Shown here piece after piece: positions 3,989 to 38,595 of a stretch of DNA of 64,000 bases. Made by a program: the position numbers and the translations under genes. Under the pieces are notes generated by a model. The model saw nothing but the letters and a program-made list of their open reading frames with translations, was not told the origin of the DNA and searched no databases. Numbering within the stretch: position 1 is the stretch's first letter; each line of letters starts with the position of its first letter. Source of the DNA: Williamsia phyllosphaerae. GTDB taxonomy: Bacteria; Actinomycetota; Actinomycetes; Mycobacteriales; Mycobacteriaceae. The DNA is taken from the NCBI RefSeq assembly GCF_014635305.1, contig NZ_BMCS01000002.1, positions 682,001-746,000 of the forward strand. The letters run 5' to 3'.

Positions 3989-5242
3989 TCAGTTCACCCG
4001 ACCGGGCGCACCCACCGATTTGCGCCATGCGCTGAACGAGCGGACCGGCGCCCGACCCGGACGGACCAGCCACGGCCACGGGTGGATCTCGACCGGTTCG
4101 ACGCGTCGGGAGATGGACTGCCATCCCGGTACCGGGGCCCACGTCGCGGCCACCGAGCGGTCGGCGAGTTCGTCGGCGACCACGCCGCGTCGGACCTCGA
4201 CATCGCGGCGTTGCGCGAGGTCACCCAGGCATTCGGCCAAGAAGACCAACCGTTTGCCGGACAGTCGCAACCGCTGCAGCAGCGGCTCGTCGAACACGAA
4301 CACCGCGGGCAGCGTCGGGTTGGTGTCGAGGGCGGGGTCGGTGTCGCCGAGGGATTCCGCGGTCAGCCACACCGCGTCGGCGTGACCCGGGCCCTCGACC
4401 TCGTCGGGTCCGGCGGGGATGTCGGCGGCGCCGAGGTACGGGCCGTCGACGGACGGACCGGTCGCATCCGACGGCCAGCCCTCGATGGGGCAGTTGTCCG
4501 ACAGCGAACACTCCCGGCACAGCGCGGGCGCCCGCTTGTTCACCTGCCAGCGACTGAACCCGTACGGCTTGCCGGAGCCGGTCCCGATCGTCCACTGCCA
4601 GCCGAGCCGGTTGGCCGCACGCGACCCGTCGAGTAGGTGCGCGAACATCTCGTCCTCACCGTCGCGCCAGGTTGCCCCGGCGCGCACGGCCCACTGCGAC
4701 GACAGCCACATCCGCGTCTGGTTCACCAGCCACCCCTCGGTGTGCAGCTCCCCGACGACGGTCTCCATGCACTTCATGTCGTCGGGCCACGGGTTGTCAG
4801 TCCACCGCGATCCCGCGCCGGCACGAGGCTGGTCGCGTCGCAGTGAGGCCCCGAGGTCGCGACCCACCCGGGCGTAGAGGTGGCGGGCGTACTCCTGCCA
4901 CATCAGCTCGTCGCGGTAGCGACCCTTGTCGCGGCCCGGCGCGTCGGACACCGCGTCCCACACGGTTCGCAACGGCAGCAGGCCGTGGCGGATGTAGGGC
5001 GACATCCGGCTCGCACCGCGTCGATCGACCGGCAGCACGGTGCTGCGATCACGCGCGTACCCGGTGATGTCGACACCGGCCAACGCGGTGTCGGCCGCGA
5101 CCTGTCCCCCGGTGAACCCTCCCGCGGTGATGTCGGTGGGGCTTTCACGAGCGAGGTCGCCGAGGTGCTCGGCGACCCAGGCGATCGATTCACCGTGGTC
5201 GGATCCGGACGCGGGCGCGGGAGGTGTGGGCAGTAGAGGCAT
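3989..5242 (-). CDS. Photolyase/cryptochrome-like protein with reversed domain order
   Basis: This is a 417-residue protein. Residues about 40-240 match the helical FAD-binding domain of photolyases: FTGGQ, SRMSPYIRHG (79-88), YRDELMWQEYARHLYAR (109-125) and NRLGWQW (211-217), the counterpart of NQHGWQW in the classical photolyase at 37168-38595. Residues about 288-375 resemble the start of the alpha/beta antenna domain (LPAVFVFDEPLL, then GKRLVFLAECLGDL and VEVRRGVVADEL), which is N-terminal in every classical photolyase. Cysteines at 158, 242, 245 and 251 suggest a 4Fe-4S cluster as in PhrB/FeS-BCP enzymes. The ATG at 5242 follows the GNAT stop by two bases. Substrate (CPD, 6-4 product or signalling) is unknown. 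Confidence 0.8.
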   Translation of the reverse strand: MPLLPTPPAPASGSDHGESIAWVAEHLGDLARESPTDITAGGFTGGQVAADTALAGVDITGYARDRSTVLPVDRRGASRMSPYIRHGLLPLRTVWDAVSDAPGRDKGRYRDELMWQEYARHLYARVGRDLGASLRRDQPRAGAGSRWTDNPWPDDMKCMETVVGELHTEGWLVNQTRMWLSSQWAVRAGATWRDGEDEMFAHLLDGSRAANRLGWQWTIGTGSGKPYGFSRWQVNKRAPALCRECSLSDNCPIEGWPSDATGPSVDGPYLGAADIPAGPDEVEGPGHADAVWLTAESLGDTDPALDTNPTLPAVFVFDEPLLQRLRLSGKRLVFLAECLGDLAQRRDVEVRRGVVADELADRSVAATWAPVPGWQSISRRVEPVEIHPWPWLVRPGRAPVRSFSAWRKSVGAPGRVN

Positions 5243-5244
5243 GT

Positions 5245-5766
5245 CTATCCCGTGGTCAGTGGCAGGTGCATCACGTGCAGGCCCACCCGACCGTGCCGGG
5301 CGCTGTCGAAGGCGCCCGGCACGGTTCCGATGATGTCGAAACCGAGGCTCTGCCACAGCGCGACGGCTGCGGTGTTCGTCTCGACAACGGCATTGAACTG
5401 TATGGCCGCGAACGCTTCTTGCCGATGCCAGTCGATCACGTACTCGCCGAGCAACCGCCCGACGCCTGATCCGCGTGCGTCGGGCGAGACCATGAAGCTC
5501 GCCGTCCCGACATGCGCGCCGCGCGCGGGCCGGTTCGGCCCCATCGTCGCCGTGCCGAGCACGCGCTCACCGTCGACCGCGACGACGACGTGCGACGTCG
5601 GGCCGCCGAGCCACACGCCGCGGGACTCGTCGCTCGACCATGCGGGGTCGAACGCGTAGGTCTCCCCGTCGGCGACGATCTCGGCGAAGAACGGCCAGAT
5701 CTGCGGCCAGTCGGTGTCGGTGAAGGGTCGGATCGTCACCGACGCCGACGCGCGTGCTGCGGTCAC
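5245..5766 (-). CDS. GNAT-family N-acetyltransferase
   Basis: This GNAT fold protein, about 173 residues, shows the acetyl-CoA pyrophosphate loop as SPDARGSGVGRLL and a following VVETNTAAVALWQSLGFDIIGTVPGAF, which is the usual C-terminal GNAT signature. The substrate is unknown; the family includes phosphinothricin/amino-acid acetyltransferase-like members with this length. I chose GTG at 5766, five bases after the aldo-keto reductase gene ends; GTG at 5739 (giving MTIRPFTD) is a fair alternative because the fold begins there. It sits between an aldo-keto reductase and the photolyase-like gene with almost no spacing, which indicates one transcript. Confidence 0.85.
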   Translation of the reverse strand: MTAARASASVTIRPFTDTDWPQIWPFFAEIVADGETYAFDPAWSSDESRGVWLGGPTSHVVVAVDGERVLGTATMGPNRPARGAHVGTASFMVSPDARGSGVGRLLGEYVIDWHRQEAFAAIQFNAVVETNTAAVALWQSLGFDIIGTVPGAFDSARHGRVGLHVMHLPLTTG

Positions 5767-5770
5767 GCCT

Positions 5771-6775
5771 CTAGACGATGCGCTTTTCGGGGCTCTTGGT
5801 GAGCGATGCATCGCGAATGATGCTGCTGCCCAACGCCTCGTCGATCTTCTTCAGCACGTCGGCGTCGAGGGTGACCTCGGAGGCCTTGACGTTCTCGGTG
5901 ATCTGCTCGGGGCGCGACGCACCGACGAGCGCGGCGGCGATGTTGTCGTTGGCGAGTACCCATGCGATGGCGAGCTGCGACATCTTGATGCCCAGATCGT
6001 CGGCGATGGGCTGCAGTTTCTGCACGTTGGTGAGGACCTCGTCGTCGAGGTAGCGCTTGATCATCTCGTCGCCACCCTTGTCGTCGGTGGCACGCGACCC
6101 GGCCGGCGGCGCCTCGCCCGGCTTGTACTTGCCGGTGAGCACGCCCTGGGCGATCGGCGACCACACGATCTGCGAGATGCCGAGCTCCTTCGAGGTCGGG
6201 ACGACCTTCTCCTCGATGACGCGCCAGAGCGCGGAGTACTGCGGCTGGTTGGAGATGATCGAGAAGCCGGCGTCGCGGGCGAGGATCTGGCCCTCCTGCA
6301 GCTGCTCGGCGGTCCACTCCGACACACCGATGTAGAGGGCCTTGCCCGAGCGGACGACGTCGGCGAACGCCTGGATCGTCTCCTCCAGCGGGGTCTCGTG
6401 GTCGTAGCGGTGCGCCTGGTAGAGGTCGACGTAGTCGGTGCCGAGGCGCTTGAGTGAGGAGTTGATGCCCTCGCTGATGTGCTTGCGTGACAGGCCGGTG
6501 TCGTTGGGGCCGAGCTTGCCGACCGGGAAGTAGACCTTCGTGAAGATCTCCAGCCCCTCGCGGCGCTCGCCCGAGAGTGCCTTGCCCAGCACGGTCTCGG
6601 CGGCGCCGTTGGCGTAGACGTCGGCGGTGTCGAAGGTGGTGATGCCGGCCTCGAGGGCAGCGTGCACGCACTTCTCGGCGATGTCGTTCTCCACCTGAGA
6701 GCCGTGGGTCAACCAGTTGCCGTACGTGATCTCTGAGATCTTGAGACCGCTGTTGCCGAGGTACCTGTAAGCCAT
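5771..6775 (-). CDS. Aldo-keto reductase, potassium-channel-beta/YghZ type
   Basis: This 334-residue NADPH-dependent reductase has the catalytic tetrad Asp49 and Tyr54 (FDTADVY), Lys80 (FTKVYFP) and His122 (YQAHRYD). The opening MAYRYLGNSGLKISEITYG is typical of the AKR6/AKR12 branch. The ATG at 6775 is favoured because the family N-terminus begins there and GGAAGG lies upstream; an open frame continues further upstream but is low complexity and overlaps a repeat array. It is the first gene of an operon with a GNAT enzyme and the photolyase-like protein. It may reduce reactive carbonyls; the physiological substrate is not evident. Confidence 0.92.
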   Translation of the reverse strand: MAYRYLGNSGLKISEITYGNWLTHGSQVENDIAEKCVHAALEAGITTFDTADVYANGAAETVLGKALSGERREGLEIFTKVYFPVGKLGPNDTGLSRKHISEGINSSLKRLGTDYVDLYQAHRYDHETPLEETIQAFADVVRSGKALYIGVSEWTAEQLQEGQILARDAGFSIISNQPQYSALWRVIEEKVVPTSKELGISQIVWSPIAQGVLTGKYKPGEAPPAGSRATDDKGGDEMIKRYLDDEVLTNVQKLQPIADDLGIKMSQLAIAWVLANDNIAAALVGASRPEQITENVKASEVTLDADVLKKIDEALGSSIIRDASLTKSPEKRIV

Positions 6776-37167: not shown

Positions 37168-38595
37168 TCACTTACCGGAGACCTGTCCGTAGCGACGCAG
37201 GGCCTCTTCACGTTCGGCTTTGTGGTCGACCATGGGCTCGGGGTAGTCCGAGGGCCGACCGTCCTTCAGCTCGTGGACCGCCTTGCCCTCCACGTCGGCG
37301 AGTTCGGGCACCCAGCGTCGGACGTAGTCGCCGCTCGGGTCGAACTTCAGTCCCTGGGTGGTCGGGTTGAACACCCGGAAATACGGGGACGCGTCGGTTC
37401 CGCAACCCGCGGTCCACTGCCACCCGTGCTGGTTGCTGGCGAGGTCACCGTCGATGAGCTGGTCGAGGAACCACCGGGCGCCCCACTGCCACGGCACGTG
37501 CAGATCCTTGACGAGAAACGACGCGACGATCATGCGGACGCGGTTGTGCATGAACCCCGACCCGGAGAGCTGCCGCATGCCCGCGTCGACGATCGGGAAG
37601 CCGGTCTTTCCCGCTTTCCAGGCGTCGAAGGCCTCGTGGGCGGCCTTGTCCTCGTCGACCTCGATGGCGTCGAAGCTGCGGTTCCAGTTGTGCCACGCGC
37701 TGTGCGGCCACTCACGCAGCACCGATGCGTAGAAGTCACGGAAGCAGAGCTCACGCAGGTACGCCGTCGCCCCGTCCTTGTGGTCGCTGTCCTTCTCCAG
37801 TTCGGTGAGGTCGGCGAGCATGGTGCGCGGATGGATGTTGCCGAACTTCAGGTAGGCCGACATCCGGCTGCTGGCATCGAGATCGGGTCGGTCGCGGGCG
37901 TCGTCGTAGTCCTCCACCGAGTGCTGGGAGTAGTCCCCGGCGCCCTGACGGAACTGCTTCCACCGTTTCTGCGCTGCGTCCTCACCCGCCGGGATCGACA
38001 GCTCGACGTCGACGTCGGGGATGTCGACGGCGTGCACGTCCGACGATCCGGTACCCACGACGTCCTTCGGGTCGATCCAGTCCGCCGACTTCGCGCCCGA
38101 CCGCGCCGGGGAGTGCCAGCCGTGCTCGCGCCAGGCGCGGAAATAGGGGGTGAACACCTTGTACGGCTCGCCATCGTTCTTGGTGACCCGCCCCGGGGTG
38201 ACCGCGAACGACGACCCCGTCGAATGCAGTTCGATGTCACCGCCCTTGATGCCACTGAGTGCCTCCTCGACCCGTGCGTCGCGGGCGACGCCGTAGGGGG
38301 CGTGGTCGGCCGAGATGTGCACCGAGTTCGCGTCGATGGCCTTGGCGATCTTCGGGATCTGGTTCTCCGGCTTGCCCCGCACCACCAGCAGCCGCCCGTC
38401 GAGCTTCTCGTCGAGTCCGCGCAGCGAGTCGTAGAGGAATTTCAGCCGCCGGTCGCCTGCGGTCTTGACCAGCCACGGATCGAGGACGAAGCAGGCGAGC
38501 ACGCGGTCGGCGGCATCGGCCGCGGCGAGCAGGGACGGCAGGTCGGACAGACGCAGGTCGCGTCGAAACCAGAGCAGCGATGTGGAGGAACTCAT
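37168..38595 (-). CDS. phr: Classical deoxyribodipyrimidine photolyase
   Basis: This 475-residue enzyme has the standard order: alpha/beta antenna domain ([17 protein letters not shown], then [12 protein letters not shown]) followed by the helical FAD domain ([84 protein letters not shown]). It repairs cyclobutane pyrimidine dimers with blue light. ATG at 38595 begins the conserved N-terminus. It is divergent from prrA. It serves as an internal reference for the reversed-domain protein at 3989-5242. Confidence 0.95.

Follow-up and report, generated by a model that had tools for sequence, protein, structure and literature searches.

A photolyase-like protein with its FAD domain first and its antenna-type domain last in Williamsia phyllosphaerae

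The 64,000-nucleotide stretch of Williamsia phyllosphaerae DNA analysed here (contig NZ_BMCS01000002.1, positions 682,001 to 746,000 of the forward strand; termed ‘the window’ below) carries a gene for a photolyase-like protein, P0001, in which the two domains of a photolyase stand in swapped order: the helical, catalytic domain that would bind flavin adenine dinucleotide (FAD) comes first, and an alpha/beta domain of the ‘antenna’ type comes last. The swap is genuine, and it is conserved. Sequence profiles and predicted structure demonstrate the two domains, their order and the conservation of that order, which together form the firm part of the explanation developed below. The ATG was taken as the start of the gene, by choice; an alternative GTG farther upstream gives a product of 455 amino acids. 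The coordinates of the gene and of its features are collected in Table 1.

The N-terminal half is recognised by several independent means. A Pfam search of P0001 returned FAD_binding_7 alone (residues 165-224, E 1.3e-7), and a phmmer search of the PDB sequences returned 13 photolyase-family chains at E<=10, the best of them over residues 52-224 (E 1e-12). Comparison by hhalign of the profile termed A2 with a profile of normal-order photolyases (A4) placed P0001 residues 42-226 on residues 200-403 of the latter, at E 1.3e-20. (A2 and its counterpart for the C-terminal domain, A3, comprise P0001, L026 and 49 of the 80 homologous loci described below, 51 rows in all; A4 comprises 30 of 38 normal-order photolyases found in the host's order, class I-type by resemblance, with the window's own enzyme replacing its copy L157.) A full-length AlphaFold2 model built on a 51-row alignment (pLDDT 92.2, pTM 0.92) bears its match to solved photolyases within residues 1-264; the first row for that model is a PhrB mutant (5kcm; Z 16.3, root-mean-square deviation 3.6, 247 residues), with others tied within Z 1. 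The FAD-binding helical half thus stands first, as a preliminary description of the window had proposed from the sequence. No match to PF04244 (DPRP), the N-terminal domain that marks FeS-BCP proteins, was found in P0001 at E<=10, nor does a PF00875 domain precede PF03441 as it does in the class I photolyases of cyclobutane pyrimidine dimers (CPDs). What is found is the arrangement of the SPL and NewPHL proteins, namely an N-terminal catalytic FAD domain with no alpha/beta domain ahead of it.

The C-terminal half is best approached through its predicted fold. The preliminary description located the alpha/beta segment correctly and drew its limits too narrowly (288-375), whereas in the model the domain, five strands together with helices over residues 290-410, reaches to about residue 410. 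Folded alone, the last 134 residues gave a model (pLDDT 88) that aligns to residues 1 to ~170 of solved photolyases and cryptochromes. Among the best 50 rows returned for this isolated domain by VIA-align, 49 belong to the photolyase/cryptochrome family: 47 are titled as such, 6x24 has the molecule name Cryptochrome-2, and 4i6j we take to be cryptochrome 2. The top row, 1dnp (E. coli photolyase), aligns model residues 4-134 with chain residues 1-168 (Z 10.4, root-mean-square deviation 3.2, 129 residues). The match begins at chain residue 39 or earlier in all 49 family rows, with 7d1c alone running to residue 289. The remaining row among the 50, 7pua_Ff, belongs to a Trypanosoma mitoribosome assembly intermediate; this Trypanosoma brucei assembly component matches the domain model and, as 7pub_Ff, the full model as well, which suggests a photolyase-like fold there also. 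By this predicted structure the C-terminal part does appear to fold like the start of a photolyase alpha/beta domain, the point on which the claim of a rearrangement had been said to hang.

Sequence profiles land on the same N-terminal antenna domain of the normal-order enzymes. Profile A3 matched A4 over normal-order residues 7-82 (pairwise E 3.3e-6, probability 87.8) with a score of 46.8, as against a mean of 15.2 and a maximum of 25.2 for 150 column shuffles; the reversed profile gave E 0.23, and the FAD half of A4, used as target, E 0.22. A profile of Deinococcus C-terminal domains (three fused homologues and one separate alpha/beta open reading frame, ORF) matched A4 at E 1.3e-9 over residues 5-119, scoring 68.9 where 150 shuffles reached at most 23.1, and matched the actinobacterial domains at E 1e-20. 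For the Deinococcus and SPL comparisons 72 of 75 actinobacterial rows passed a motif cut; the domain is visible by eye in the three that were dropped (L145, L146 and L147). When SPL C-terminal domains were pooled, the match extended to A4 residue 151, less surely at that end, with the Deinococcus and actinobacterial rows as its probable source. Of the four Deinococcus proteins or segments that contain the domain, three gave a match to the Pfam family DNA_photolyase itself (E 2.3e-4, 7.2e-4 and 1e-3, all of them short of the Pfam curated cut-off; none in L183). The parallel drawn earlier between motifs of this segment and those of the window's normal-order photolyase (37171-38595) is correct, and it continues N-terminally, where VWLTAESLGDTDPAL stands opposite a 15-residue stretch of that enzyme.

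Several observations weigh against the assignment of this half. The control with the reversed Deinococcus profile, which still gave E 0.0057 and a score of 26.6, is less clean than the shuffles. Only 10 of 51 actinobacterial segments showed DNA_photolyase at E<=1 (best 0.011), and the match in P0001 is weak, at E 0.14; such sub-threshold matches may explain why family scans report a lone FAD domain. A hidden Markov model of the C-terminal domain found no photolyase at E<=10 among the PDB sequences, and outside the profile-profile comparisons the sequence evidence for the domain is weak. The classical RRDLR motif is replaced in P0001 by TAESLG, and antenna or interface function may therefore have changed. 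Finally, Foldseek returned no row at E<=0.001 for the isolated domain; photolyases appeared at E 0.03 to 0.93 amid other folds (ranks 2, 4, 5, 21, 41, 42 and 46 among the best 50 rows), below a poorly superposed first row. Universal stress proteins and CoaD are listed at similar E-values, as they would be if the domain were a generic Rossmann-like one, of the universal stress protein or nucleotidyltransferase type, that merely resembles an antenna domain. That explanation is nonetheless very improbable in view of the near-uniform VIA-align rows, which match photolyases and cryptochromes from the N-terminal end of their chains, the profile matches (E 3e-6 to 1e-9) with their shuffle controls, and the DNA_photolyase matches of the Deinococcus homologues.

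The order of the two domains recurs in relatives of P0001. A search of one genome per species (84,980 species) yielded 419 relatives, and 80 loci were kept. A FAD motif followed by an alpha/beta motif was found in 79 of them; the eightieth, L063, has an alpha/beta motif that, judged by eye, differs slightly, and a collinear match over query residues 1-415. (The contig of L075 ends inside the alpha/beta domain, and L079 and L105 are read from residues 171 and 68, respectively.) Thus the homologues, once collected, bear out a conserved reversed order. The possibility that an antenna domain had been missed in the reading frame ahead of the gene was ruled out, no RRDLR-like motif being present in the in-frame upstream stretch at any of the 80 loci. 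An assembly or annotation artefact was likewise ruled out, by the same order across these loci and by matches in each of the eight genomes of the genus that were searched, among them the window's own. Seven of those matches are in one piece, that of G002 reading through a single internal TGA, and that of G005 is in two pieces on one contig. The closest named relatives are proteins of Williamsia maris (95%) and of a Williamsia metagenome-assembled genome (MAG; 97% over residues 171-416). Across a sample of the phylum at least 26 of 396 genomes, again with the window's own included, match at E<=1e-30, a lower bound since four candidates were scored per genome, and every match reaches model position 407-412 of 413. 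One of the 80 loci lies in a MAG labelled Myxococcota (L108). Two tblastn scans of viral contigs found no relative, and eight weak matches in phage records all fall on the FAD half. As a separate observation, matches to SPL and to FeS-BCP (DPRP) share a strand in one actinobacterial genome and are separated by ~0.9 kb (G243:C25:30610-33332).

The catalytic machinery points to DNA repair. The pattern C-x2-C-x5-C-P is present at all 80 loci, and although a regular expression for the first cysteine missed eight of these, C158 is invariant in the 51-row alignment; P0001 has the four conserved cysteines (C158, C242, C245 and C251) of the Fe-S subset of SPL proteins. When homologue L086 was aligned to 1dnp and the correspondence carried over to P0001 through A2, residues E112, W115, N174, M178, W192, N211, W215 and W217 fell opposite E. 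coli E274, W277, N341, M345, W359, N378, W382 and W384, residues that take part in CPD binding and electron transfer. Apart from M178, conserved in at least 90% of rows, each of these P0001 residues is invariant in A2. With these residues matched, CPD repair is, from the sequence, the likeliest activity of P0001. FAD would be bound through the helical domain, and blue light would excite the reduced flavin, which would pass an electron to a CPD held by the residues matching E. coli Glu274, Trp277, Asn341, Met345 and Trp384; the dimer would then split and the electron return. The four cysteines would hold a [4Fe-4S] cluster, and the C-terminal domain would pack on the FAD domain as an antenna domain normally does, where it would cover the FAD side and might carry a light-harvesting pigment.

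Two points tell against this assignment of function. In the L086-1dnp alignment no tryptophan stands opposite E. coli Trp306; and PMC9426592 predicts (6-4) repair, from the Fe-S cysteines and alongside UV-C phenotypes, for the cyanobacterial proteins Phr4/5 and Phr6. P0001 might by analogy be a reverse-order (6-4) photolyase instead of a CPD photolyase, or a signalling cryptochrome. Against this, the counterparts of the CPD-binding residues of E. coli photolyase are conserved, that of Asn378 included, and such an alternative is judged improbable. On balance P0001 is very probably an Fe-S-type, SPL/Phr6-like, light-driven DNA-repair flavoprotein, with an N-terminal FAD domain joined by a linker of ~33 residues to a C-terminal domain of antenna fold, and the most suitable place for it is among the Fe-S-type SPL/Phr6-like CPD photolyases, a kind already known.

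How the order arose can be approached through split and distant forms of the protein, and through trees of the two domains. On a plasmid of Deinococcus sp. QL22 (L172:1899-3190) two ORFs that overlap by 4 bases (ATGA) encode the domains separately: first the FAD domain, of 257 aa, then the alpha/beta domain, of 173 aa, which is annotated as a hypothetical protein. In Alphaproteobacteria and Persicobacter, SPL-type proteins have ~120-150 residues beyond the FAD domain, for which no sequence tie to antenna domains was found (E 0.4 for Alphaproteobacteria, with four of six rows used; E 0.07 for the two Persicobacter rows). In their surroundings, the alphaproteobacterial genes (L178, L179, L174 and L182) lie near genes for AarF/ABC1/UbiB kinases, DUF3429 proteins or both, and the Persicobacter ORF overlaps a second photolyase-like ORF (L175:2899-5515, L176:1953-4524), whose product falls among haloarchaeal proteins in the tree of FAD domains. 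That tree (63 sampled rows) unites the SPL-type proteins, from the relatives of P0001 to those of Deinococcus, Alphaproteobacteria and Persicobacter, in one group with support 88/62, with no characterised SPL among the rows; class I-type, haloarchaeal and DASH proteins and two Persicobacter proteins stand beside this group, with FeS-BCP as outgroup. The alphaproteobacterial rows are probably NewPHLs. In the alpha/beta tree (55 sampled rows, with 10 of 12 FeS-BCP) a branch supported at 100/98 parts the SPL domains and FeS-BCP from the class I side.

Both the separate alpha/beta gene of Deinococcus QL22 and the unmatched C-termini of Alphaproteobacteria and Persicobacter would be expected had an antenna-less SPL later gained a photolyase-type alpha/beta domain at its C-terminus, by independent fusion and with no permutation. 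This history is considered unlikely: the SPL alpha/beta domains are not nested within the class I side, and the FAD tree likewise separates SPL from class I and FeS-BCP, a pattern that fits a shared age of the two domains, an argument limited by the weak support for the SPL alpha/beta domains as one group (53/0) and by a long-branch warning from the program. Both trees are compatible with an old two-domain origin, of which they are no proof, and neither fixes the root. Most likely the order was derived from a two-domain photolyase, either by circular permutation or by gene fission followed by refusion in the other order. The further proposal that the whole Fe-S SPL/Phr6/NewPHL branch arose once, when an intact two-domain photolyase was circularly permuted (or split and rejoined), is tentative, its chances being put at a little under even. 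If it is true, the short photolyases that are supposed to be antenna-less and ancestral are derived forms, whose antenna domain was shifted to the C-terminal end and was degraded in members lacking the Fe-S cluster, and it would be a mistake to root the photolyase/cryptochrome family on SPLs as ancestors poor in domains.

The stop codon of the upstream ORF, GNAT acetyltransferase-like by eye, is followed by 2 bases and then by the ATG of P0001. Such an ORF stands next to the SPL gene at only two of the 80 loci (E<=1e-10; some loci are cut by contig ends), both in Williamsia, and is therefore not a conserved partner. The genome has three photolyase-family genes: the reverse-order SPL gene, the normal-order class I-type gene (also on the minus strand) and an FeS-BCP homologue (DPRP, PF04244) at G000:C1:126703-127293.

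Table 1. Features of the reverse-order photolyase-like gene and its neighbour (window coordinates)
Feature	Position	Strand	Basis or remark
Reverse-order photolyase-like coding sequence (P0001)	3989..5242	minus	417 aa + stop; translates without internal stop
N-terminal FAD/catalytic helical domain, residues ~42-256	4475..5119	minus	Pfam, hhalign, structural match
Interdomain linker, residues ~257-289	4376..4474	minus	model secondary structure
C-terminal antenna-type alpha/beta domain, residues ~290-410, five strands	4013..4375	minus	model, profiles, weak Pfam DNA_photolyase (E 0.14)
Glu112, at the position of E. coli photolyase Glu274	4907..4909	minus	invariant in A2; via L086-1dnp alignment
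Cys158, first putative Fe-S ligand	4769..4771	minus	invariant in 51 aligned homologues
Active-site stretch from Asn174 through Trp217	4592..4723	minus	via L086-1dnp alignment
Cys242, Cys245, Cys251 (C-x2-C-x5-C-P), putative Fe-S ligands	4490..4519	minus	invariant in 51 aligned homologues
GNAT acetyltransferase-like ORF (by eye)	5245-5811	minus	adjoins P0001 upstream

Comparison with known systems can begin within the window itself, where the normal-order photolyase, class I by resemblance, has two domains that are each homologous to those of P0001, in the opposite order and with no C-x2-C motif seen in its sequence. FeS-BCP proteins such as PhrB share with P0001 a cysteine-ligated cluster (putative in P0001) at the end of the FAD domain, and a PhrB entry was the first structural match; unlike P0001, they have the normal order and an N-terminal DPRP domain (PF04244), and the spacing of their cysteines is wider. 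Light-dependent CPD repair in single-stranded DNA is a mark of SPL and NewPHL proteins. Among Actinomycetota, Rhodococcus fascians provides a member of the SPL class. In PMC9649867, SPLs are described as lacking the alpha/beta domain, as possible ancestors of the family and as carrying an Fe-S cluster; the SPLs of Xu et al. 2021 are also mentioned in PMC9178010 and PMC9498864. P0001 resembles them in having no alpha/beta domain ahead of its FAD domain and in its putative cluster, and differs from that description in possessing an alpha/beta domain, at the C-terminus. The presence of this domain, homologous to the antenna domain by profile comparison and conserved, in sampled Actinomycetota, on Deinococcus plasmids and in a Myxococcota-labelled MAG bears directly on the claim that SPLs lack it, and it could matter that the Fe-S branch of these short proteins is not poor in domains.

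NewPHLs and SPLs are equated in PMC13274461, which ascribes an inverted domain topology to them, and P0001 shares with NewPHLs that topology, with its N-terminal FAD domain. Tree support for placing it in one clade with the alphaproteobacterial proteins, themselves probably NewPHLs, is moderate (88/62). Phr7, which PMC9426592 ties to the work of Emmerich et al. 2020, has a short atypical C-terminal ‘Z-domain’ and none of the Fe-S cysteines, in contrast to the four putative ligands of P0001. A survey of the literature on photolyase permutation and domain order found, among the papers listed, only PMC9426592 reporting a reversed order, which is no proof that other reports are absent. There, the Phr4/Phr5 and Phr6 proteins of marine Synechococcus and Cyanobium are described as having an N-terminal FAD domain and a C-terminal photolyase domain, an order called the reverse of all previously described photolyases. 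With such kin described there and in PMC13274461, the preliminary description is outdated in taking the opposite order to hold for every photolyase and cryptochrome; the rearrangement that it proposed is upheld by structure prediction, profile comparison and conservation, while the exclusivity of the classical order is not. As in Phr4/5 and Phr6, a photolyase-type alpha/beta domain follows the FAD domain in P0001, and the spacing of the Phr4 cysteines (C169, C254, C257 and C263, as given in a figure legend of PMC9426592) is the same C-x2-C-x5-C. The kin of P0001, likened to those proteins by published description, are by contrast actinobacterial, and fused in the 80 loci. One-gene and two-gene forms occur in both settings, the Deinococcus QL22 pair paralleling cyanobacterial phr4/phr5. 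Reverse-order photolyases show that antenna and catalytic halves need not follow the usual order and that in some bacteria they are separate genes.
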